Origin: Tenacibaculum sp. 190130A14a
Lineage (GTDB): Bacteria > Bacteroidota > Bacteroidia > Flavobacteriales > Flavobacteriaceae
Assembly (NCBI RefSeq): GCF_964048965.1
Contig: NZ_OZ040189.1
Location: 558,001 to 622,000 of the forward strand
Direction of reading: 5' to 3'
Length of the DNA stretch: 64,000 nucleotides
Part shown: positions 50,143 to 60,139 of the stretch, in pieces
Numbering within the stretch: position 1 is the first letter of the stretch
How the letters are laid out: each line of letters starts with the position of its first letter
Program-made: the position numbers and the translations under genes
Notes under the pieces: generated by a model
Told to the model about the DNA's origin: nothing
The model's database searches: none
Seen by the model: only the letters and a program-made list of their open reading frames with translations

Positions 50143-50201
50143 ATGTTTTAAGGAATGAGATTTAGGGTAAGTGTTTTGTTAAGAGATATATAAAAACAAA
50201 A

Positions 50202-50226
50202 AAGCCTCACAAAAAGTGAAGCTTTA
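50202..50226 (-). terminator. old tRNA terminator, displaced by integration
   Basis: On the minus strand AAGCTTCAC (50224-50216) pairs with GTGAGGCTT (50210-50202) with one G-U pair, then a T-run. It sits directly behind the 14-base tRNA 3'-end copy at 50230, as the terminator of the uninterrupted tRNA gene would. No tRNA now uses it. Region 50143-50201 shows nothing else. Confidence 0.7.
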
Positions 50227-50229
50227 AAG

Positions 50230-50243
50230 GTGGTCCCACATGG
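50230..50243. repeat. att site, left (displaced tRNA 3' end)
   Basis: GTGGTCCCACATGG is identical to 60065-60078, where it forms the 3' end of an intact tRNA gene. Bases outside the 14 differ on both sides. This is the left boundary of the integrated element; the integrase gene starts 187 bases inside it. The stretch between (50244-50384) holds no gene and no repeat that I can see. Confidence 0.85.
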
Positions 50244-50384
50244 ACTAAGTGTTTTTAATCTTGATTGAACATTGTTGCTCTTAATTCGTTATTATACCTG
50301 TTGTTTTTGTTGACTTTATAGATTTTACAAGTATAATAATAATTATTGATATTTATAATTGTATGGCTTAAGTTGTATCTTTTG

Positions 50385-50415
50385 TTGTCACTTTTTTAAT
50401 AAATCCTTATATTTG
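50385..50415 (+). promoter_or_regulatory. integrase promoter (TTG-N20-TAnnTTTG)
   Basis: TTG at 50385-50387 and TATATTTG at 50408-50415 are separated by 20 bases and stand 14 bases before the integrase ATG, giving a short leader. Confidence 0.65.
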
Positions 50416-50429
50416 ATAAAATTGAAATT

Positions 50430-51734
50430 ATGTCAAATTCTCAGAGAACAAAAGGGCAAAATATACGTTTCAGGTTAAAGTCATCTCAAAAAGAGTTGAA
50501 GCCTATATATTTGGATTTGTCCTTAGGAAGAGGAAAGAGGTTTAGGTATTCAATTGGATATTCTGTAAATCCAAAGTATTGGAATGAACAAAAAGAAAGG
50601 GTAAAAAATGCTGTGATGGTAAGCAACTCTAATGAGATTAATGATAGGATTTCGGATATAGAATCTGAATTATTTGGATTTATAGCAAAGTGTGATTCTC
50701 AGCAAATACAAATTAATAAAGAGTTGTTGAAAGAGTGTTTAGATGTTTTTTTAAAAAAAGTTGAGCTTAAAGAGGAGAAAGAATACGATTTGTTGACCTA
50801 TGGTAGAAAGTATGTTGACTTGAAAGAAAAAGAGTTGGGTAATAGTGGGGGAGTTAAAAAGTATAAACAGACCTTAAGGTTACTTGAAGATTTCCAAAAG
50901 GATTTAGGTTACAAATTAAGTTTTAAAAATATTGATAACGAGTTTTATTCTGAATTTGTGGATTTTTTGAATACTAAAGAGCATTCAAGAGATACAGGTT
51001 ATGCAACAAACAGTATCGGAAAGCATATAAAAACAATAAAAACTTTTATGAATTCCTCATTAGAACAAGAGTTACATACGAACTTTAAGTTTAAAAAATT
51101 TAAGGTATTAGTAGAGGAGACAACAGCAATTTATTTAACTGAAGAAGAATTGCAGAAAATGTTAGACCTTGATTTATCTAAAAAACCTAAACTTGAATTA
51201 GCAAGAGATATTTTTATTATAGGATGTGAAATTGGTCAAAGAATTAGTGATTATTCTGATATGCAAAAACATGAGATAGTAAATCATAAAAAAGAAAAGT
51301 ATATTAAAATAAAACAGGAGAAGACTGATAAACAAGTATTGTGTAGAATTACTGAAGTAATAGAGGATATAATGAATAAGAGATATAATGGAAGTCTTCC
51401 TCCTAAAATATCTCATCCATTATTAAATAGTAGAATTAAAGAGGTTGGTGAATTAGCAGAAGTCAATAGTGAAGTTAATTTTGAACGTACCCAAGGAGGG
51501 ATTGGAGTAGTGAAGAAAATGTCTAAATTCGATTTAATAATGGGGCATACTGCTCGTAGAACATTTTGTACTTTGAAGTATATGGGAGGTGTTCCTATAA
51601 ATGATATTATGGAATTGAGTGGTCATAGTTCAATTAAAGAATTTATGAAGTATATTAGAAACCCAAAAGAAGAAAGAGTTTCAATGATTACAAATACCGA
51701 AGCTTTTAGAAAATCATCCTTAAAAGTTAGTTAA
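50430..51734 (+). CDS. tyrosine-type integrase of the element
   Basis: A 434-aa tyrosine recombinase. It has an N-terminal arm-binding domain (about 1-110), a SAM-like core-binding domain (about 118-225) and a catalytic domain with Arg271 (GQRISDY), His373-x-x-Arg376 (GHTARR), His399 (LSGHSS) and the nucleophile Tyr408 (KYIR). All five key residues are present, so it should be active. It catalyses integration and excision at the tRNA att sites. Its position next to attL and direction away from it are usual for tRNA-targeted elements. The next gene overlaps by 1 base. Confidence 0.93.
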   Translation: MSNSQRTKGQNIRFRLKSSQKELKPIYLDLSLGRGKRFRYSIGYSVNPKYWNEQKERVKNAVMVSNSNEINDRISDIESELFGFIAKCDSQQIQINKELLKECLDVFLKKVELKEEKEYDLLTYGRKYVDLKEKELGNSGGVKKYKQTLRLLEDFQKDLGYKLSFKNIDNEFYSEFVDFLNTKEHSRDTGYATNSIGKHIKTIKTFMNSSLEQELHTNFKFKKFKVLVEETTAIYLTEEELQKMLDLDLSKKPKLELARDIFIIGCEIGQRISDYSDMQKHEIVNHKKEKYIKIKQEKTDKQVLCRITEVIEDIMNKRYNGSLPPKISHPLLNSRIKEVGELAEVNSEVNFERTQGGIGVVKKMSKFDLIMGHTARRTFCTLKYMGGVPINDIMELSGHSSIKEFMKYIRNPKEERVSMITNTEAFRKSSLKVS

Positions 51735-52600
51735 TGTTATTTAGTGAAAGTGTTATAGAAGAAAACCCTGAAGGGTACCTAACAAATGTTTTTTCGATAA
51801 AGTCTGATTTAGGTCTTTCGTATTTTGTGTTTATTAATTATAATGCTGATAGGAGTGCGAATTCTAAATATACAACTCTTGAGGAATCGAACCCTGAATT
51901 GTATTCTGAATTAAAAGAAGGGGAGTTTGTGACTAAATTTACCAATAAACTTAAAGAATTTTATATAGAAGGGTTATTTCAATATTATCAATCAATAAAC
52001 TTTGATGAAGTAGAAATTAATAGATTCATAAAAGAGTTTAATTCTTTTAAAAATGAAATTATGAGTAATCAATTTAAAGGCGATATTACTTTTTCTCAAA
52101 CTTATATAGATGTTGTGATAAGTGAGGTGAATATTTTGATTTCACGTATTTCAGAAATGAACGCTGCTTCGGAAAAAGACATTACTTCAGAAAAAGACAC
52201 TATTTTAATTAAAAGCACTAAATCTGCTAATAATTCTTTTTTTACGCTAAATGACGGTATAAAGATTTCGTTTGTAGATTTAAGAAATTCATTAATAACA
52301 AGAGGATGTCTTGAAAAGTCCATTAAAGCAGTTACATTGGAAAATGTGTTCGATGATTATCATGATGGTAAGCAAAAACAAATTAATTGGATTGGTAGTA
52401 AAAATAAATTAGGTTTGTTTATTAAGTTACTTAAGGATAAAAAAATAATTACTGATGGTCAACCCTTCCTTATTGCAAAAAAAACTTTTTTAATTAAGGA
52501 TGAAAAGATAACTACATTGACACCTCCTAAAAAAGAAGATTCAAAGAATTATTACAATAGTTTTGAGAAGATGCTCGATAATCATACGACTTCTACATAA
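51734..52600 (+). CDS. RteC-like protein of unknown function
   Basis: A 288-aa soluble protein coupled to the integrase gene by a 1-base overlap (TAATG). The C-terminal third has the pattern KQINWIGSKNKLGLFIKLLKD, seen in RteC-type and related proteins that accompany integrases in Bacteroidota elements (inference from memory). A short direct duplication, SEKDITSEKD (about 149-158), is present. It has no signal or membrane segment. It may control excision or copy number; no assay-based role is known to me for this type. Downstream 52601-52728 has no gene. Confidence 0.5.
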   Translation: MLFSESVIEENPEGYLTNVFSIKSDLGLSYFVFINYNADRSANSKYTTLEESNPELYSELKEGEFVTKFTNKLKEFYIEGLFQYYQSINFDEVEINRFIKEFNSFKNEIMSNQFKGDITFSQTYIDVVISEVNILISRISEMNAASEKDITSEKDTILIKSTKSANNSFFTLNDGIKISFVDLRNSLITRGCLEKSIKAVTLENVFDDYHDGKQKQINWIGSKNKLGLFIKLLKDKKIITDGQPFLIAKKTFLIKDEKITTLTPPKKEDSKNYYNSFEKMLDNHTTST

Positions 52601-52728
52601 TTTTAATTTTTAAGGGGTTTTATTTTAATTTTAGACTTCTACTGTTTCTCCTGTGTTTAGATAATACTTCCCCCTCGCTTTTCCCCTTGTTATTTAAAAA
52701 GAACTGATTTTTAAGTTTTTGCTCACCT

Positions 52729-52736
52729 TAGATTTG
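52729..52736 (+). promoter_or_regulatory. TAnnTTTG box for the excisionase-like/Rep pair
   Basis: TAGATTTG lies 26 bases before the ATG at 52763; no -33 TTG at normal spacing. Confidence 0.4.
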
Positions 52737-52762
52737 TAGTAGAAATTTTAAATTATTTTTTT

Positions 52763-53110
52763 ATGACAAAAGTTTTATTAAAAAGAAAAACAGGGGATGT
52801 TTTATCTCAAATATGGGATTTTTACAGTGATTTATTGGTTGATAAACTAATTGATAGGTTAGAAGGAAGAAATCATGCTTTACAAACGATTGAAGTTTCG
52901 TGTAGAGAAAAAGAAGAAGAGGAGGATAAACTTCTTTCGGTTCAAGATGTTTGTCAAATTTTTGGAGTTACGAGAGGTACTCTTAATAATTGGCGAAAGT
53001 TAGGTTATTTTAAACCTGATACTAAAGTAGGAAGGAGTCCTCGTTATAAAATGAGTTCTGTTCAAAGTTTTATTAATTCTAAAAATGAAAGTTATGATAG
53101 ATTTAATTAA
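52763..53110 (+). CDS. excisionase-like helix-turn-helix protein
   Basis: A 115-aa protein. The C-terminal half (about 57-106: LLSVQDVCQIFGVTRGTLNNWRKLGYFKPDTKVGR...RY) is the MerR-like HTH_17 winged helix of Xis/excisionase-type proteins. The N-terminal 50 residues are helical and acidic/basic. In elements of this type such a protein bends DNA at the att sites to favour excision, or represses the rep gene. It overlaps the start of the replication gene by up to 26 bases, so the two are coupled. Confidence 0.8.
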   Translation: MTKVLLKRKTGDVLSQIWDFYSDLLVDKLIDRLEGRNHALQTIEVSCREKEEEEDKLLSVQDVCQIFGVTRGTLNNWRKLGYFKPDTKVGRSPRYKMSSVQSFINSKNESYDRFN

Positions 53111-54029
53111 AATATACTTTGAAAATAAGGAAGAGATGGAGGATTGTGTTAAATCAAGGAAATTTAGAGGGCTGCATTCTAAATATTTTTATAATACCGA
53201 TACATTAACTTATCCTATAAGAGCGGAACTTGATAATCTTAAACTGAATGTTACTGATAAAAGTGCAAGTATAGAGAATTCAATACATAAATATTTTAAT
53301 AGTGTTTTTGGTAAGGGCGTTCAAAATTATAATGATTTTAGTTATTGCGATTTTATTCAGGCTTGTAAAGATTTAGAGGCTAAGTTAGGGTTGTCTTTTG
53401 AAGGTACTTATTTAACAAGGTTTGAATTTGGATTTAATATCAAGTTGGATTTTGACCCTACAGATTTTATCGAAGATAATGTGTTAATGTATAATTACAA
53501 TGCACCTTGTTATGACCCAAAGTACAAGAGAAGAGAGAAGATTATAAAATTCTCATTGAGAGAATATGAGATAAAAATTTACAATAAATCTTTACAGTAT
53601 GGGCTAAAGGAAGATGATGCTAATATTCTTAGGGTAGAAGTAAAGTATAAATCAAGAAGATTAATTCAAAAAATGGGGATATATAACATTAAAGATTTAT
53701 ACAATAAATCTGTACTCAATAATGTATATAATGATTTTATGAATAAGATAGAAAAAATTATTATTGTTGATGATTATAAAGGGAGCTTAAAAATGGATGC
53801 TAAGGAAAAAGATTTCTTTATCAAATGCACGAATCCAAATTATTGGATTGATTTAAGAAAAAACTATTCTAAAAATGTAAAAAACTTACACAAAAAAAGA
53901 TTTTTAAAGTTAGTAGATAAATATCATTTAAGTAAAAAAAGAAATTATGTGTTAGAAAAGTTTAAATCTAAATTTGAAGAGTTAATGTTTTGTAGTAATA
54001 ATTACTTTGAAAATCAATTAATTGCATAG
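53085..54029 (+). CDS. probable replication initiation protein
   Basis: A 314-aa basic protein; an alternative ATG at 53094 would remove 3 residues. The middle section (LTRFEFGFNIKLDFDPTDF; REYEIKIYNKSLQYGLK; then ILRVEVKYKSRRLIQKMG, about residues 180-215) follows the order seen in phage gene II/X-like and plasmid replication initiation factors, in which a Y-x-K segment precedes a strand LRxEVxxKS. No HUH motif is obvious. If correct, the element can replicate as a circle after excision. It is transcribed with the excisionase-like gene and closed by the terminator at 54105. Confidence 0.45.
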   Translation: MKVMIDLIKIYFENKEEMEDCVKSRKFRGLHSKYFYNTDTLTYPIRAELDNLKLNVTDKSASIENSIHKYFNSVFGKGVQNYNDFSYCDFIQACKDLEAKLGLSFEGTYLTRFEFGFNIKLDFDPTDFIEDNVLMYNYNAPCYDPKYKRREKIIKFSLREYEIKIYNKSLQYGLKEDDANILRVEVKYKSRRLIQKMGIYNIKDLYNKSVLNNVYNDFMNKIEKIIIVDDYKGSLKMDAKEKDFFIKCTNPNYWIDLRKNYSKNVKNLHKKRFLKLVDKYHLSKKRNYVLEKFKSKFEELMFCSNNYFENQLIA

Positions 54030-54104
54030 AGGTGGGAAAAATCAACTATTGTAATAACATGAAAAGTAGTAAAATGAATTCAAGAGTAGAGTTTTTAATA
54101 TAAG

Positions 54105-54136
54105 AGACCTAAGATATAAAGCTTAGGTCTTTTTAT
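54105..54136 (+). terminator. terminator of the element core genes
   Basis: AGACCTAAG (54105-54113) pairs with CTTAGGTCT (54122-54130), followed by T residues on the plus strand. It also covers the last codons of the convergent 131-aa gene. Confidence 0.75.
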
Positions 54137-54518
54137 TTATCCTTTCATCAACATCATTGCTGAATTCTATCATTTTAGTTTCATTTAAATATTCTATTAC
54201 TACCCTGTTTTGATGGAATTTCTTCATCAGAAAAACGGTCAGTTTTTCAATATAATTCTTTAGAGTATTTTCCTTTGTTGGAAATTTTGGATAGTTAATG
54301 AACTCTAATTTTAAATGTTTTTCTCTTTGATTGTTTAAAACTATTAACGAATCTATTACTGAACAACTCAAATAAAATTCTTCTTCTAACATGAGTTTCT
54401 TTTGATATTCAGAAATAGACTCCAATATTTCATTCTTTTGTATTGGCTTTTGAGAATACCCATACTCCAAACCAATATTTACAATTGCCTTAAAAGATTT
54501 TATTGTAGTTATCTTCAT
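54123..54518 (-). CDS. 131-aa protein coupled to the FGase-like gene
   Basis: A 131-aa soluble protein with no recognised domain. It has a helix-rich first half (KNEILESISEYQKKLMLEEEFYL), then a strand HLKLEFINYPKFPT and a C-terminal helix/strand pair (YIEKLTVFLMKKFHQNRVVIEYL). The start overlaps the end of the N-formylglutamate-amidohydrolase-like gene by 29 bases, so the two proteins are almost certainly made together. It may be an immunity, activator or substrate-binding partner. It is the last gene of a four-gene operon. Confidence 0.55.
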   Translation of the reverse strand: MKITTIKSFKAIVNIGLEYGYSQKPIQKNEILESISEYQKKLMLEEEFYLSCSVIDSLIVLNNQREKHLKLEFINYPKFPTKENTLKNYIEKLTVFLMKKFHQNRVVIEYLNETKMIEFSNDVDERINKKT

Positions 54519-55251
54519 AATAAACAGCGTTCATAAGACTAATAAATTCTTGTGTTACTGATTTTATTTCCTCAAAATCTTTAGATTTAGTGTTGGTTTT
54601 ATCTTCTAAATACAGCTTCCTATTAATCTCTAACATAATTGAACTAACTCTTTTGTCTTTTTGATAAAAATTCATTGGAACAATAGACCCACTATAAGGT
54701 TCGTCAACACCAAGACTAAAGCCTTTTGACTTAAAAAAGTCAATTGAAGCATCTATGAGTTTTTTAGGAGTATGAAAACTATCTGTTCCAATGTTAAAAT
54801 CAGGACGATTTAAGATTTTGTTTAAATCTCTTTTTAAAGGTGTATCAGGAAAAGAATGACAATCAATAATTAATGACTGTCCGAATTCTTTTAACTCTCT
54901 TAAAACAGCTTTATTTAGGTCTGAATGATGTTTCCAATAATAGCTTGTAAGAATATTTTCTCTCAACTCCTCAGTAACGTTTCGGATTGGTCTTCCATCA
55001 TCACTTTTCTCATATAATACACCCATTCCATACTTGAACATTACTTCCTTAGAATTATCTGAAAATCTTTCAGTATCACAGAATATTCTTGAAAAATCTG
55101 CTTTTACAGATTCCCAATTCTTAGATTCAAATAACTCATCGGTGTACCAATCTGTTAATTTTAAAACTTCTTGACTTAACTCATCTTTAGAAATAATAAA
55201 TCCATCTTTATTTGGGAACTTAATTGAAGAGTGCGGAATGTGTAAAATCAT
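54490..55251 (-). CDS. N-formylglutamate amidohydrolase family enzyme
   Basis: A 253-aa enzyme of PF05013. MILHIPHSS at the N-terminus gives His4/His7, LIIDCHSFPD has Asp130 and His132, and MLEINRKLYL has Glu208, the conserved pattern of this zinc-dependent amidohydrolase family. The named reaction frees formate from N-formylglutamate in histidine degradation, but no hut genes are here and the gene is cargo of a mobile element, so another amide (modified peptide, peptidoglycan fragment or metabolite) is more likely. Its start codon overlaps the stop of the upstream 55-aa gene (ATGA). Confidence 0.8.
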   Translation of the reverse strand: MILHIPHSSIKFPNKDGFIISKDELSQEVLKLTDWYTDELFESKNWESVKADFSRIFCDTERFSDNSKEVMFKYGMGVLYEKSDDGRPIRNVTEELRENILTSYYWKHHSDLNKAVLRELKEFGQSLIIDCHSFPDTPLKRDLNKILNRPDFNIGTDSFHTPKKLIDASIDFFKSKGFSLGVDEPYSGSIVPMNFYQKDKRVSSIMLEINRKLYLEDKTNTKSKDFEEIKSVTQEFISLMNAVYYEDNYNKIF

Positions 55252-55415
55252 TTTTTGCCCTGAATTTCTCGTATTTTCGTTTCTAAATATTTTCTTTCAG
55301 AAATAATCTTTTCTATGTCTTTGACTCTTTGCTTTTCAGATTTTTTTAAGTCATCATATCTCATGTAGAAATATATTGCTGCATAAAATAATATTCCAAA
55401 AACAAAAGCTATCAT
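55248..55415 (-). CDS. 55-aa membrane-anchored coiled-coil protein
   Basis: A short gene read directly from the minus strand between the lipoprotein and FGase-like genes. It begins MIAFVFGILFYAAIYFYMRY (one membrane helix, residues 2-19) and continues as a highly charged helix KKSEKQRVKDIEKIISERK to residue 55. Its TGA stop shares 4 bases (ATGA) with the next start codon, and its start lies 9 bases after the upstream stop; both facts support a real, coupled gene. It is too small for usual gene-calling thresholds. It may tether or oligomerise a partner at the inner membrane. Confidence 0.7.
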   Translation of the reverse strand: MIAFVFGILFYAAIYFYMRYDDLKKSEKQRVKDIEKIISERKYLETKIREIQGKK

Positions 55416-55424
55416 TGGTAGTCT

Positions 55425-56276
55425 TTAATCAATTAAATTTCTCTTCTTTAGTTCTTTAAAAAACTTATCACATTCATCTCCTTTAAAACTCATTCTATAA
55501 ATCAAATCATCTACAAATGTATCATTGATGAATTTAAAATTTACACTACTCGATTCCATTTCTGAATGCCCATTAGAAAATATTTCTTGTGAAAACTTGC
55601 TATCAGATTTAATATCCTTGAATAAATAATCTATTTGTTCTGTTTTAACAATTTCATTGTTTTCATTCAACAAATCTATAGTTATTTCGTAAGCTCCATA
55701 AGGAACATTGTATTTAGATTTGTTTCCAAGCAGTATAGAACCACCGACTCCCCCATAAGAGTTTTTTGTGAGATTATTTTGAATCTTAATATTATCGAGA
55801 ATATGCTTTCTCAATACTAATTTATTGAACTTAAAGACTTTTTTAGCATCATTACACTTTTCTTCTATCAGCACGTCATTTACATCATTGATATTAAGGC
55901 AACCTGTTTTTTTAGCAAAATCAAATATTTTACTATCGAATAAAGGAGAAAGACCTTTTGTTGATTCTATGTATAAATGACCTTTATTTCTAATAATATT
56001 AAATAAAACCATCCTCTCTTTTCCTTTATCTCCTATGTTTACATAAGCTTTAAATCTATTTGGTTCTTCTACAATGTTTTCAATATTAAAATTCTCTATA
56101 GTAATGTGACTATCCAACTTTTTAAGATTCGGGTACGTTTTAATAGCTTCTTTGTGATTTTGAAGTTTTAACTCATATAAGAAGTTTTTAAGCAAAAGCT
56201 CAGCATCACTTTTATTAAAACCTTTGTTACAGCTACATAGAACAATAAGTAAAACAGATGTAAATAGTCTTTTCAT
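55425..56276 (-). CDS. 283-aa lipoprotein, first gene of the FGase operon
   Basis: A protein with a lipoprotein signal (VLCSC, Cys16). The mature chain has an N-terminal helical segment (KSDAELLLKNFLYELKLQNHKEAIKTY) and then mostly beta structure (RFKAYVNIGDKGKERMVLFNII; VPYGAYEITIDLLNE). No family is recognised. It may be a periplasmic receptor or ligand-binding part of the cassette, in the envelope with the 55-aa membrane protein. Its promoter overlaps an operator shared with the divergent XRE gene. Confidence 0.6.
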   Translation of the reverse strand: MKRLFTSVLLIVLCSCNKGFNKSDAELLLKNFLYELKLQNHKEAIKTYPNLKKLDSHITIENFNIENIVEEPNRFKAYVNIGDKGKERMVLFNIIRNKGHLYIESTKGLSPLFDSKIFDFAKKTGCLNINDVNDVLIEEKCNDAKKVFKFNKLVLRKHILDNIKIQNNLTKNSYGGVGGSILLGNKSKYNVPYGAYEITIDLLNENNEIVKTEQIDYLFKDIKSDSKFSQEIFSNGHSEMESSSVNFKFINDTFVDDLIYRMSFKGDECDKFFKELKKRNLID

Positions 56277-56315
56277 AGAAATACTTTAAAAGAATAACAA
56301 ATCTAATAAAAATTT

Positions 56316-56341
56316 CAAATATAGGATTATACGCCTATATT
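56316..56341. promoter_or_regulatory. dyad operator over the promoter of the FGase operon
   Basis: AATATAGG (56318-56325) and CCTATATT (56334-56341) form a perfect 8-bp inverted repeat with an 8-base spacer. The minus-strand -7 box TATATTTG lies at 56323-56316 and shares six bases with the left arm. A repressor on the dyad would block the minus-strand operon; the divergent XRE gene starts at 56365. Confidence 0.65.
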
Positions 56342-56364
56342 AATTATTCAGGAATTCCACAATT

Positions 56365-56595
56365 TTGAATGTGGAAGAGTCAGAAAAAAAAGAGTTTCTA
56401 ATTTTATTCGGAAAAAACTTCCGCAAAATCCGTAAATCCAAAAATTACTCCCAAGCAAAATTAGCCATAGATATTGATTCGGATGTTTCCCATATAAGTA
56501 GAATTGAAAGGGGTTTAACCAACACTACTGTAATTAAGTTAAAAGAAGTTTCTAAAGTTTTATCAATTCCTGTAGAGGAGTTTTTTAACTTTTAA
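56365..56595 (+). CDS. XRE-family repressor
   Basis: A 76-aa protein consisting of one Cro/C1-type HTH domain (about residues 10-70: LFGKNFRKIRKSKNYSQAKLAIDIDSDVSHISRIERG). There is no ATG; the start is TTG at 56365 or GTG two codons later, which may keep its level low. It is divergent from the lipoprotein/FGase operon with an operator between them, and it is convergent with the GHKL gene (3-base gap). It is the likely regulator of the minus-strand cargo. Confidence 0.85.
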   Translation: MNVEESEKKEFLILFGKNFRKIRKSKNYSQAKLAIDIDSDVSHISRIERGLTNTTVIKLKEVSKVLSIPVEEFFNF

Positions 56596-56598
56596 TAT

Positions 56599-58671
56599 TT
56601 ATAGATTGTTAATTCCTAAAGCCTTAAAAAACACATCATGCCTTTTTTCGGCAAAATCTACCAAATGATTATAGTCTATAACTTCAAAGTATAAATTAAG
56701 CTCAGGATTAACTTTATACAAAGTCCCATGTGGAGTCTTCTTAAAGCCATTTCTTTTAATGTTGTAATTGATTAAGTCTTTATGTAAATCACAAACAATA
56801 TAACCAAATTTAGGAGTCTCATCTTCTAAATTGATATAATTACCTTTTGAATTTTTTGCTTTAGATTCTCCTAATTTTTCAAAATACATATCCAATTGAT
56901 AATCTAATCGTTTATCATTTGTTGTATTCATGTCCCTTCCTGGTCTTTTAAACTCAAATAACACCATTGAATTTATGTTATTTGGGTTATCAGAATAAGC
57001 CATAGGAACATCGTATATAAATAAATCAGGTTCTCTCTGACTTGAAGATTCTAATTCAGTGTTAGACCTTAATTGTTTGTCAGATGCAGTAAAGGAATGA
57101 AAAGTTAATCTTTCGTCTAATAACCACAAATTATGATAATCATCAGGCATACTATTGGTGTCAGCTCCCATGGTGAAAATTATATTATGCAAATCCTCTT
57201 CTAACATATAGTTTCCTTCATCTCTCCATTCTAAATATTTTTTAAATAGCTTAATGATAGATTTACGCTTTATCATTAAGTCAGCTAATTTATCTTTAGA
57301 AAAAGAAGCTTCTTCTCTTAAGACATTGTGGACAATTTTGCCAAACTCATCTTTGTCGTACTTTCTTTTTTTGAATAATTTATTAAAAGCTTTTTCTCTT
57401 TTCTGTTCTAATTTAAAAGAAACTTCATGAAGTCTTGCTTCTAACAGGTCATCACTTGCATTTATAGGAATATCGTTGAAAGCATTCTCTATCGAGAGTA
57501 AATGCTTATATCTTAGCCTTGGTTTCTTTTCATCAAGGATATAACTTTTGATTCTAACGTTTTTCTCTTTTTCAGCTTCCTTAATAAAATCTGAATACGT
57601 GTCTTTTACCTTGTTTGCTAAACCTTTGCACAGCCCCTCTAACGAAATCCCATCATGTTCTTGCAATTTATCATCTTTATCAGGGAAACTAAATCTATTT
57701 CTCTGAGGTAGAGCTTTTTCATCTAAGAACTCACTTGTTACATATAGAGAAATATGAAATTTTTTATTTTCATCATCATGAAGTTCTTTAAAAGATGGAA
57801 TGTACTTAGTTAAGGTTTTTTTATCTCCTACTTGTCTATTATTAGCACATAAGTGTATTGAATGAGATTGTACTCCGTTATAATTTTTTATATAATTAAG
57901 TGTAAATTCTCTATCTAAATCAGATAACTGTACGTTTTTTTGTGTATCAGCTATATCAATAACTGTTCTATAAATATCATTTAATACTAAAGCCTCTTCG
58001 ATACTCTCTCCATCATCTAATAAGTAAATAGTCGGAACTGTTTTATTTAAAAAATACAATAAGCAATGTTGTATTATACCTTCCGCTATATCTTTTTTAG
58101 ATACTTTATTAGTGTTTATGTATTTAGCATATTGTTCCTTGTAATTATTTAGCTCTATTTGTGTGTAAATTTCTGAAGGTACTTTAGAGTTTGAATCTAT
58201 ATTTACCTTTTGTAACCCTTTTGAGTTGTCAAATCGTAATACTCGCCTTAATGTTGTTTTGTTTTCTAAATAATAACTATCAATATCCATACTACCGAAA
58301 CAAGCCAATACCGTATATCTTCCTATTCCTTTGCATCCATGTTTAGTCGCTCCATAATCTGTATAAGGAGTTCTAAAAGCATCAAATCTATTGTTAATAA
58401 AACCTATTCCATTGTCTCTAACAGAAAACCCTATGATAGGGTTGTGTTTTTCTTCAATATCTTCTTCTCCAAAATTTAGTTTAGATTCATTTAATCTCTT
58501 TATTGATATTACTATTTTTCCATCATTGATATTGTCATTATCTATAATACTTTGTATAGAGTTTACAACTACTTCCTGTAAAGGAAGTAAATATTCCTCA
58601 GGTCTAATATCTATACTGCTTATTAGACCTTTAAAATGAACCTTTTGTTCAATAACCTCTATTCCATTCAT
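56599..58671 (-). CDS. GHKL ATPase fused to PD-(D/E)XK-like nuclease
   Basis: A 690-aa protein. The N-terminus is an Hsp90/MORC-type ATPase: N box LPLQEVVVNSIQS (Glu33, Asn37), G1 RDNGIG (Asp86-Gly90) and G2 GCKGIGRY (112-119). The middle (about 200-520) is helical and charged, likely the transducer and a coiled section. The C-terminus (547-690) has EPDLFIYD (Asp549), VLFEFKRPGRD (Glu573-x-Lys575) and Gln592, a PD-(D/E)XK nuclease pattern. An ATP-gated clamp joined to a nuclease is typical of bacterial conflict systems. It has its own promoter box and no cognate methylase nearby. Function is inferred. Confidence 0.75.
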   Translation of the reverse strand: MNGIEVIEQKVHFKGLISSIDIRPEEYLLPLQEVVVNSIQSIIDNDNINDGKIVISIKRLNESKLNFGEEDIEEKHNPIIGFSVRDNGIGFINNRFDAFRTPYTDYGATKHGCKGIGRYTVLACFGSMDIDSYYLENKTTLRRVLRFDNSKGLQKVNIDSNSKVPSEIYTQIELNNYKEQYAKYINTNKVSKKDIAEGIIQHCLLYFLNKTVPTIYLLDDGESIEEALVLNDIYRTVIDIADTQKNVQLSDLDREFTLNYIKNYNGVQSHSIHLCANNRQVGDKKTLTKYIPSFKELHDDENKKFHISLYVTSEFLDEKALPQRNRFSFPDKDDKLQEHDGISLEGLCKGLANKVKDTYSDFIKEAEKEKNVRIKSYILDEKKPRLRYKHLLSIENAFNDIPINASDDLLEARLHEVSFKLEQKREKAFNKLFKKRKYDKDEFGKIVHNVLREEASFSKDKLADLMIKRKSIIKLFKKYLEWRDEGNYMLEEDLHNIIFTMGADTNSMPDDYHNLWLLDERLTFHSFTASDKQLRSNTELESSSQREPDLFIYDVPMAYSDNPNNINSMVLFEFKRPGRDMNTTNDKRLDYQLDMYFEKLGESKAKNSKGNYINLEDETPKFGYIVCDLHKDLINYNIKRNGFKKTPHGTLYKVNPELNLYFEVIDYNHLVDFAEKRHDVFFKALGINNL

Positions 58672-58693
58672 AGTGTTTTAATCTTTTATCCTA

Positions 58694-58701
58694 CAAAAAT
58701 A
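58694..58701 (-). promoter_or_regulatory. TAnnTTTG box for the GHKL-nuclease gene
   Basis: On the minus strand TATTTTTG lies 22 bases before the start codon. Confidence 0.45.
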
Positions 58702-58917
58702 TTATTATAGACTATAAAACTAAGCTATTTAATATAAAATACATAATTCTTTAATAGCAATAAACCTGATATTAAAAAGTCTAAATTAATAATCAACCTT
58801 TTATGATAAAAAACAAAGTATAAGCCAAGAGAGAAGTCTCTATCAGGAGAGGCTCATAAGTGTATAAATAAGATGTAAAAGAACGAGGCTTAATTCCTTA
58901 AGTAAAACATTATAAGT

Positions 58918-58932
58918 AAAACGTAAATTATT
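58918..58932. repeat. 15-bp direct repeat, copy 1
   Basis: AAAACGTAAATTATT occurs here and again at 59738-59752. The two copies enclose the 251-aa membrane protein gene almost exactly; this copy covers its stop codon. It could mark an inserted gene cassette, or be chance in AT-rich DNA. Confidence 0.5.
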
Positions 58933-59683
58933 TTTCCTCTTCGTTTAGCTTTTTACCATACTCTTTGAGTCTATTACTTCCTGCTCCAAAATGTATTAAT
59001 GCTCCAAAAAATAATATACATATTAAAAGGACTGAAGTAACAGGAGTAAACTCAAAATAATTATCTACACATATCCTATAAATTGAATAACCTAAAAAAA
59101 TCAAAGGGAAAAAGACTAAGCAAATTACAGTTATAAATTTTAGTGGGAATTTAGTCCAACTTTTAATTTCATAATCTTTAAATTGATGTAAGACAATGTT
59201 GTCAAAAAAGAAATAAGGATTAATAATTTTCCTTGTATAGGAGTATTTGCCTAACTTAAAAAGATTCTTCGACACTTTTTCAAACAACGAGATTAAAAAC
59301 TTATTGTTTGTGTAAATAGTGACATTCTTTAGAAAAAGAAATGTAAAGCAGACAGGAATAAAGCTAAGTAAAATGTTAGTGTCACTAATTTTTATAAATA
59401 ATACTTCTATTTCTGAGTCAACTTTCTTGTTGTCAATTAAAAAATAGATTACAAAACATATAAGCATCCCAAATGAATTTTTAACCATTCTGCTATTGTT
59501 GTCTTTTATATTTTGTGCTATGTAATTAAAGTAATTTAAACTTATTCCTTCACTTTCAATGTTTTCGTCTTTAGTGTGATTAGTATATATCTCGTCTATT
59601 TCTTTATTTAAACTTTTAAAAATATTATCTATTTCACTCTTAGTCTCATTAAAACTACCTTGTAAAAAATCTTTTTCTTTCAT
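58928..59683 (-). CDS. four-helix membrane protein of the element
   Basis: A 251-aa protein with a soluble charged N-terminus (about 1-65; SEIDNIFKSLNKEIDEIYTNH, likely coiled coil) and four hydrophobic segments (about 70-84, 104-120, 184-204 and 213-234). A cytoplasmic loop of about 60 residues separates the two pairs. No family is recognised. It lies upstream of the GHKL-nuclease gene on the same strand but 256 bases away, so it probably has its own transcript. It could be a membrane effector or transport protein. Confidence 0.55.
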   Translation of the reverse strand: MKEKDFLQGSFNETKSEIDNIFKSLNKEIDEIYTNHTKDENIESEGISLNYFNYIAQNIKDNNSRMVKNSFGMLICFVIYFLIDNKKVDSEIEVLFIKISDTNILLSFIPVCFTFLFLKNVTIYTNNKFLISLFEKVSKNLFKLGKYSYTRKIINPYFFFDNIVLHQFKDYEIKSWTKFPLKFITVICLVFFPLIFLGYSIYRICVDNYFEFTPVTSVLLICILFFGALIHFGAGSNRLKEYGKKLNEEEK

Positions 59684-59699
59684 TTCTTATTTTTTACTT

Positions 59700-59707
59700 C
59701 AAATATA
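59700..59707 (-). promoter_or_regulatory. TAnnTTTG box for the membrane protein gene
   Basis: On the minus strand TATATTTG is located 16 bases before the start codon. Confidence 0.45.
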
Positions 59708-60019
59708 ACATCTTCGAATAATTAAACTATTATATACAAAACGTAAATTATTATGAAATTAGAGTTTGTAAAAAGACCGAGATAGTACCTACAATAAATG
59801 TACCCCTTCATTTTATTTTTTTTTAGCGTACCCCTATGTAATAATTGCAATACGTAAAAGTTAGCGATAAAATATTTTCTTATCAATAAAAAATAATATT
59901 ATTTAGGAAAATGTAGCTTGTAGAAAGTGTTTTGACGGTAGTCAAAGGGGGTATTATATAGGGTAAATAAAAATTTTAACCTTAAAAGTTGTCTCTTATG
60001 TTGTCGCTGCTGAAAACAA
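59708..60019. other. non-coding right end of the element
   Basis: About 310 bases without a credible gene. It includes the second 15-bp repeat (59738-59752) and three similar short motifs: GTACCCCT at 59800-59807 and 59828-59835, and an inverted, slightly different form (AGGGGGTA) at 59946-59953. Repeated short sites near an att core may be arm-type sites for the integrase or sites for the excisionase-like protein. Otherwise it is AT-rich with long T and A runs. Confidence 0.4.
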
Positions 60020-60060
60020 AAAACCTGCAACTATTTCGTAATGAATGTGTTACAGGTTTT
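60020..60060 (-). terminator. new tRNA terminator supplied by the element
   Basis: AAAACCTG (60020-60027) pairs with CAGGTTTT (60053-60060), extended after a mismatch by AAC/GTT, and runs into Ts on the minus strand. It lies 5 bases past the tRNA 3' end and differs in sequence from the displaced terminator at 50202. Confidence 0.75.
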
Positions 60061-60064
60061 AAGT

Positions 60065-60078
60065 GTGGTCCCACATGG
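60065..60078. repeat. att site, right (inside the tRNA 3' end)
   Basis: GTGGTCCCACATGG, identical to 50230-50243; here it forms the acceptor and start of the T arm of the intact tRNA, so the insertion kept the tRNA functional. Confidence 0.85.
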
Positions 60079-60139
60079 GCTCGAACCATGGACCCCCTGA
60101 TTATGAGTCAGGTGCTCTAACCAACTGAGCTATAGGACC
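60066..60139 (-). tRNA. tRNA-Met (CAT anticodon)
   Basis: A 74-nt cloverleaf on the minus strand. The acceptor stem pairs GGTCCTA with TGGGACC (one G-U), the D arm has AGCTCAGTTGGTTAGAGC, the anticodon arm is CCTGA-CTCATAA-TCAGG with anticodon CAT, and the T arm is CATGG-TTCGAGC-CCATG. CCA is not encoded. CAT can also be the minor tRNA-Ile whose C34 is modified to lysidine; identity elements would be needed to decide, but an elongator Met is more likely. It does not look like an initiator (first base pair is matched). Confidence 0.92.

Follow-up and report, generated by a model that had tools for sequence, protein, structure and literature searches.

The recurring part of a four-gene operon in the marine bacterium Tenacibaculum sp. 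190130A14a is its last two genes, which encode an FGase-family amidohydrolase and a 131-aa protein. Both fold and catalytic residues give good support for placing the family of the 131-aa protein in the SAM lyase superfamily. This two-gene reading replaces one in which all four genes, including those for a predicted lipoprotein and a 55-aa protein, formed a unit. The window analyzed here is a stretch of 64,000 nucleotides. Computation on it and on related genomes yielded an integrative element, an operator-like palindrome beside the operon, a protein fold with conserved catalytic residues, a recurrent pairing of two genes, and purifying selection on them. We tentatively favor a repressor-linked, two-enzyme cargo that would destroy SAM, or a SAM conjugate, together with a second, amide-bonded molecule, most likely as a counter-defence.

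An XRE-flanked operon on an integrative element

The four open reading frames reported in an initial annotation are all present as described (Table 1), and the tight coupling claimed for them is exact, with a 9-base gap, an ATGA overlap, and a 29-base overlap. A divergent XRE gene adjoins the operon, as that annotation had said, and its placement of the genes on a mobile element is borne out by the att repeat, the tRNA-Met gene, the integrase, and an empty insertion site in another genome. The 24-nt repeat pair is an att duplication, of which the left copy adjoins the integrase and the right copy overlaps the 3' end of tRNA-Met (60065-60139), the only match in an Rfam scan. In L088, a genome of the same genus, the site is empty and intact, and the window's flanks (50185-50246 and from 60058 on) form one uninterrupted stretch, with a 24-nt overlap at the 3' end of the tRNA-Met gene. 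Because these flanks join with that overlap, the element is 9.8 kb long and its uninserted site exists. In L089, the second of the two same-genus genomes examined, the left flank alone matched and the tRNA was not found. The element also encodes a 690-aa protein that had no family match in Pfam, NCBIfam, PADLOC, or PHROG.

Table 1. Features of the element and operon (positions in the window)
Feature	Position	Strand	Basis or remark
Integrative element, ~9.8 kb	50223..60081	.	att repeat, tRNA-Met 3' end, empty site in L088
attL, 24-nt repeat copy	50223..50246	.	repeat family D13, 88% identical
Integrase	50430..51734	+	PHROG integrase families, best E 1.1e-22
Terminator-like hairpin at operon end	54102..54133	+	match on both strands
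SAM-lyase-fold protein, 131 aa, predicted to cleave SAM or a SAM conjugate	54123..54518	-	
FGase-family (PF05013) amidohydrolase, 253 aa	54490..55251	-	conserved His/Glu positions kept
55-aa protein, one hydrophobic stretch and charged tail	55248..55415	-	absent from L003 gene list
Predicted lipoprotein, 283 aa	55425..56276	-	lipobox-like LCSC (by eye); one relative
Operator-like palindrome between XRE gene and operon	56318..56341	.	8-bp arms, 100% complementary
XRE regulator, 76 aa, TTG start, divergent from operon	56365..56595	+	HTH_3 E 7.6e-11
attR, 24-nt repeat copy overlapping tRNA-Met 3' end	60058..60081	.	repeat and tRNA position

In PADLOC the XRE protein matched HTH_VI at E 4.5e-12 and the control-protein family at E 5.4e-12. 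With up to two mismatches allowed, the palindrome has no second occurrence in the 3.94-Mb genome. A 76-aa XRE protein next to a palindrome, with a control-protein match, resembles the controller (C) proteins of restriction-modification (R-M) systems; the difference is that the operon facing it contains no restriction enzyme. We infer that it represses the FGase/lyase operon.

A sister element, L003, was found in a metagenome-assembled genome (MAG) titled Tenacibaculum sp. Identity between the window and L003 is 99% for the XRE protein, 92% for the 131-aa gene, 89% for the FGase, and 81% for a gene labeled Rep-like by eye; the XRE/operon intergenic region and a 251-aa gene of the right end are likewise common to both. 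The L003 palindrome has the same arms and a different spacer. Its integrase differs (32% identity), as does its cargo, and an unrelated, secreted-looking protein of 334 aa replaces the lipoprotein and the 55-aa protein, with its start at the equivalent position downstream of the shared promoter region. Between the two elements, the 131-aa, XRE, and FGase genes have dN/dS values of 0.12, 0.015, and 0.21, respectively. These low values mark genes under purifying selection, which hence look real.

The two upstream genes of the operon have no such conservation. Among 5.8 billion proteins searched by a word-based method, the lipoprotein has one relative besides itself, on a 2.2-kb contig, and the AF2 model built from the two sequences (pLDDT 35) has no usable fold. 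Among neighbors clustered within 5 kb, no lipoprotein match occurred at the 25 lyase loci besides the window, and none of the neighbors shown at lyase loci matched the 55-aa protein, which carries a hydrophobic stretch from residue 2 (mean KD 2.1 over 17 residues). Neither of these proteins nor the 131-aa protein had a Pfam match above the cut-off (the 55-aa protein had sub-threshold matches only), and none of the four genes matched any PADLOC family at E values up to 1. Since the lipoprotein has a single relative and L003 carries another protein in its place, we treat both genes as exchangeable cargo outside the enzyme machine, and the four-gene envelope machine is rejected. The initial annotation had described a four-gene cassette that could be an envelope-linked defence or toxin system, or a lysis or exclusion module. 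Its mobile, coupled, XRE-adjoining setting and an FGase outside histidine degradation have stood; the four-gene envelope unit has not. The foursome was seen together nowhere else in the searched data, and the FGase/131-aa pair alone recurs, at 5 of 23 loci beside the window. The 131-aa gene, listed there as a partner, does pair recurrently with the FGase and is actually the most informative of the four.

The two enzymes

A monomer prediction gives the 131-aa protein a ferredoxin-like PII fold. Compared with the PDB, its family profile has as nearest sequence relative a SAM-AMP lyase (E 5e-4), the C. botulinum enzyme of a CorA type III CRISPR system (9gab/9gad). Glu66 of the 131-aa protein aligns with the catalytic Glu71 of the SAM-AMP lyase, the counterpart of which is Glu69 in Svi3-3, and is kept in 52 of 53 aligned sequences, with Asp in the remaining one. 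Gln103 aligns with the B-loop Gln108 (counterpart Gln104) and is kept in all 53. Alignment A1 of the family was made from 28 of its 45 proteins. The fourth PDB match of the profile, a restriction-enzyme subunit (2p14, E 0.028), was taken as chance.

The pocket that would accommodate AMP is a point of difference. The AMP pocket of SAM-AMP lyase includes Trp64 and a strictly conserved Cys66 within a 13-residue T-loop, and Phe84 stacks on the AMP (PMC12255297). Phe79 of the 131-aa protein aligns with Phe84, whereas the HMMER alignment places a 6-residue T-loop gap over the Trp64/Cys66 stretch. Cas10/Cmr2 passed the TIGR02577 cut-off in none of the 25 lyase genomes, with weak matches in one of them (a single model was used and some of the genomes are MAGs). 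Judged by sequence, the case for SAM-AMP specificity is weakened by the T-loop gap; no Cas10 partner was found with that one model.

With the phage SAM lyases (Svi3-3, 6zm9/6znb; T3 SAMase) the 131-aa protein shares ~15% identity; unlike them, the family was seen in bacterial genomes, is linked to an FGase, and has a short T-loop. Searches of 50,697 phage and 72,556 plasmid records found no member of it, and no candidate from IMG/VR was confirmed. There are diverged proteins with a similar fold among viruses, and phrog_4848, a PHROG without assigned function, matches the 131-aa protein (E 2e-6). Among genomes the family is patchily distributed.

The FGase is a full-length member of PF05013 (E 7.8e-43; 147.6 bits against a curated cut-off of 28.9). 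Against the HutG equivalog TIGR02017 of NCBIfam it scored 48.7 bits, the cut-off being 278.75, and identity as HutG (N-formylglutamate deformylase) is rejected, which agrees with the earlier placement of this protein outside any hut pathway. In an alignment with 2q7s, a solved N-formylglutamate amidohydrolase, its His7, His109, His132, and Glu208 are matched by identical residues, and the PHS, HS, and E-R-LY motifs also line up; what distinguishes it from that enzyme type is the low HutG score and its recurrent position beside a SAM-lyase-fold gene. A search found 2331 family proteins, itself included. Among the 120 matches listed, lengths were 244-268 aa and the few named organisms were nearly all Bacteroidota; 20 of these 120 were aligned (A2), and the PHxS, CDxER, HH, DCHS, and LE positions are invariant in all 20.

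The FGase subfamily is patchy as well. At E <=1e-40, and with its own genome set apart, it was present in 2/394 phylum, 4/394 class, and 2/146 near-relative genomes, samples that overlap one another. Distant relatives (34-44% identity) occur in 10 viral contigs, six of which have an adjoining gene of 180-182 aa and several an upstream gene recognized by eye as ribonucleotide reductase; another relative is found in the T4-like Vibrio phage vB_VmeM-32. The host has a second FGase (L002, 276 aa), which had no match with the A2 profile at 1e-2 and adjoins a 386-aa gene, presumably of the QEGLA/DUF1704 type. The C-terminal domain of a 380-aa FGase in G005 and G052 was considered as a lyase and could not be identified as one, with no match to the lyase profile and a sub-threshold match to TmcA_N only.

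Recurrence of the pair

The 131-aa profile, used by itself and thus blind to FGase, returned 23 loci from 84,980 species genomes. At five of these (L003, L012, L014, L015, and L016) an FGase gene is a near neighbor. FGase comes before the lyase gene in the window, L003, and L012 and after it in L014, L015, and L016; the two genes overlap in the window and L003, abut in L012, and are separated by 0.8 kb in L015. Within 5 kb, FGase is the commonest neighbor of the lyase gene: of 26 loci, the window among them, six have an FGase and five an integrase. The remaining 20 of the 25 loci besides the window have no FGase within that distance. It should be noted that L017, where the lyase frame is interrupted, belongs to the set of 23 and not to that of 26, that L022, cut by a contig end, belongs to both, that the Cas10 and FGase counts in lyase genomes do not include those of L017 and L022, and that G377 repeats L010 and was counted once.

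Across the 24 other lyase genomes examined, seven contain an FGase of this type, adjacent in five and unlinked in two (Gelidibacter). Compared with 2/394 phylum genomes this gives a Fisher value of 2.8e-8, and with 4/394 class genomes 2.3e-7, for genome sets that are not phylogenetically independent and with the window's own genome omitted from both sides. By a rough estimate, ~0.02 adjacencies would be expected by chance, and five were seen. Five more FGase/131-aa cluster pairs, one from Tenacibaculum discolor, have longest contigs of identical size, which suggests that they are linked too.

From the FGase side, a lyase was found at none of eight genomic FGase loci and, by a search insensitive to diverged lyases, in none of the 10 viral FGase records. 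Two of the eight regions are short (L059, 3.1 kb; L056, with the FGase near a contig end), and two loci with diverged FGases (G067 and G110) were left out of the eight. The FGase frame is interrupted at two of the eight. Pairwise identities of FGase and lyase correlate with r 0.82 over all six pairs and 0.09 without the closest pair; because of this fall, co-inheritance is not supported. The picture is one of repeated re-pairing and not of one inherited operon.

Candidate roles of the pair

SAM is the methyl-group donor of the cell. If the favored reading holds, the XRE protein would keep the operon repressed in the resident element, and entry into a new cell, or a fall in repressor, would lead to synthesis of both enzymes. 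The lyase would split SAM, or a small molecule that contains it, to give methylthioadenosine, or the conjugate of it, plus homoserine lactone, and the FGase may hydrolyze an amide in a second small molecule, speculatively a conjugated or folate-like one. The pair could thereby blunt SAM-dependent host defences (type I, type III, and type IIG restriction, and BREX), and perhaps a second defence, much as the SAM lyase of phage T3 does. The substrate and purpose of the pair are assigned here by inference, and by analogy a gene of this fold, when carried by an integrative element next to one of repressor type, would most likely serve counter-defence at entry. In the cited parts of PMC12255297 and PMC11842806, phage SAM lyases convert SAM to methylthioadenosine and homoserine lactone and weaken R-M and BREX, and PMC11842806 describes inhibition of BREX by the T3 enzyme.

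The counter-defence proposal draws on the lyase fold and residues, the recurrent pairing, the patchiness of the genes, an XRE protein like R-M controllers, and FGase relatives in phages and viral contigs. Several observations count against it. T3 SAMase is toxic at higher expression, according to the portion of PMC7877911 cited, and without tight repression such a gene would be a strange one for a resident element to keep. The cited text of PMC12707154 describes antirestriction by the T3 protein as separable from its SAMase function and has the SAMase also blocking SAM synthesis; that separability weighs on the same side. Several lyase loci adjoin R-M genes, which an anti-restriction gene need not do. 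The proposal is further disfavored by the 20 of 25 loci without FGase, the empty FGase-side counts (0/8 and 0/10), and the r of 0.09.

In the papers cited here, the SAM lyases described come from phages, and the SAM-AMP lyases come from CRISPR loci and a single group of phages. A SAM-lyase-fold family in Bacteroidota, recurrently beside an amidohydrolase and often mobile, would extend metabolite-targeting counter-defence to integrative elements. The pairing also offers an initial functional setting for the FGase-family proteins that mobile elements and phages carry. Within the open-access literature (subscription papers and preprints being outside its scope), formylglutamate was not found together with SAM lyase or with anti-phage, and PF05013 appeared in nothing on this subject in open-access papers, judged by title. 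With two small soluble proteins, the idea is open to direct test.

An immune rather than counter-immune role is improbable. As a defence or abortive-infection system, phage would relieve the repressor, SAM depletion and amide hydrolysis of a second metabolite would halt the infected cell, and the lipoprotein and 55-aa protein would act as sensors or tethers. The toxicity of T3 SAMase (PMC7877911, in the part cited) suits such a role, and the operon occupies a cargo slot. The other slots of the element contain genes that may be defence-like, namely the one for the 690-aa protein in the window and one for an NA37 protein in the cargo of L003. The company of other lyase genes also fits. In a descriptive PADLOC scan of 20 neighbor entries, chosen by eye from 11 of the 26 lyase loci and without a background rate, matches at <=1e-10 occurred at eight loci (L005, L010, L016, L020, L021, L023, L025, and L063). 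They include a Septu-like ATPase (L005), a partial type IIG system (L010), type IIG R-M (L016), a type I methyltransferase (L023), a CBASS cyclase with a TIR effector (L025), and a cytosine methyltransferase (L063); the neighbors at L003, L009, and L061 had no or weak matches. Against this stand that by-eye choice of neighbors, the lack of any PADLOC match for the four genes, and the absence of any sensor gene that accompanies the pair, since neither the lipoprotein nor the 55-aa protein is conserved. More doubtful still is an anti-immune device or off-switch in which the lyase and FGase remove an immune messenger conjugated to SAM or an amino acid, of the SAM-AMP kind. The nearest PDB relative of the 131-aa protein and its Phe79, aligned with the AMP-stacking Phe84 (PMC12255297, as excerpted), point that way, and phage SAM-AMP lyases have been proposed as anti-CRISPRs in the cited parts of PMC12255297 and PMC10600005. 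The missing Trp64/Cys66 stretch and the absence of above-cut-off Cas10/Cmr2 from the 25 lyase genomes argue otherwise.

A broader principle, to which we give little credence, would be a so far undescribed two-enzyme counter-immune (or immune) strategy, spread by Bacteroidota mobile elements and in this case located next to a controller-type regulator, in which a bacterial family with the SAM-lyase fold but no AMP pocket and an FGase act on two chemically linked metabolites. Speculatively, these could be parts of one SAM-derived conjugate, its amide cut by the FGase and its sulfonium by the lyase, or the two enzymes could strike jointly at one-carbon metabolism through SAM and an N-acyl-glutamate such as folate. 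It is also unlikely, if slightly less so, that the genes are ordinary cargo, an N-acyl-amino-acid deacylase and a PII-like metabolic protein that binds or cleaves SAM, sharing mobile elements with no joint function. Identities that do not track between the two families, the many solo copies of each, and the interrupted FGase frames at two of eight genomic loci are all consistent with independent passengers. They are set against the rank of FGase as commonest neighbor, ahead of integrase, against the excess of adjacencies over the rough chance estimate, and against gene pairs that overlap in the window and L003 and abut in L012.

Variable and shared genes of the element

The 251-aa gene at the tRNA end of the element, encoding a membrane-like protein, shares 89% DNA identity with its copy in the sister element L003, and the dN/dS between the two is 0.09. 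This gene is possibly a core gene of the element. The 690-aa protein encoded in the window has no match in Pfam, NCBIfam, PADLOC or PHROG. Judged by eye, its N-terminus looks like a GHKL-type ATPase and its C-terminus appears to carry a nuclease-like FEFK motif; the protein is possibly defence cargo of the element. The cargo slot of L003 encodes an NA37 protein (PF04245, E 1.2e-42), a 400-aa protein in which membrane-like stretches were seen by eye, and a 263-aa protein. A PADLOC search of these three gave no match, and it is possible that together they form an undescribed system.

Features in the window and compared loci
Feature	Coordinates	Strand	Remarks
251-aa membrane-like protein	window 58928-59683	-	tRNA end; sister copy L003:367-1122
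690-aa protein	window 56599-58671	-	by-eye motifs, no family match
Cargo slot of L003	L003:1322-4346		NA37, 400-aa and 263-aa proteins
Secreted-looking proteins, mutually related	L014:9354-9743 (129 aa), L019:8960-9328 (122 aa)		neighbour clustering
Second recurrent family near lyase	L007:6990-7664, L008:6996-7646, L013:5380-5787, L024:2138-2719
FGase with C-terminal fusion	L058:7271-8413, L059:208-1350

Relatives and neighbours of the lyase and FGase genes

The 131-aa protein is matched by phrog_4848, a PHROG family of unknown function (E 2e-6), whose members may be unrecognised phage SAM-lyase-like proteins. Related secreted-looking proteins lie near lyase genes in two genomes, in one of which (L014) the FGase is also nearby. 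At 4 of the 26 lyase loci, the lyase gene has a member of a second family, also of unknown function, in its vicinity.

Two same-genus genomes encode the FGase as a fusion with an unassigned domain of ∼140 aa at its C-terminus. In six viral FGase loci (L026-L030 and L033), a 180-182-aa gene abuts or overlaps the FGase on its 3' side; the L026 representative, the one searched, has no Pfam match. By eye, several of these viral FGases are preceded by a ribonucleotide reductase-like gene.
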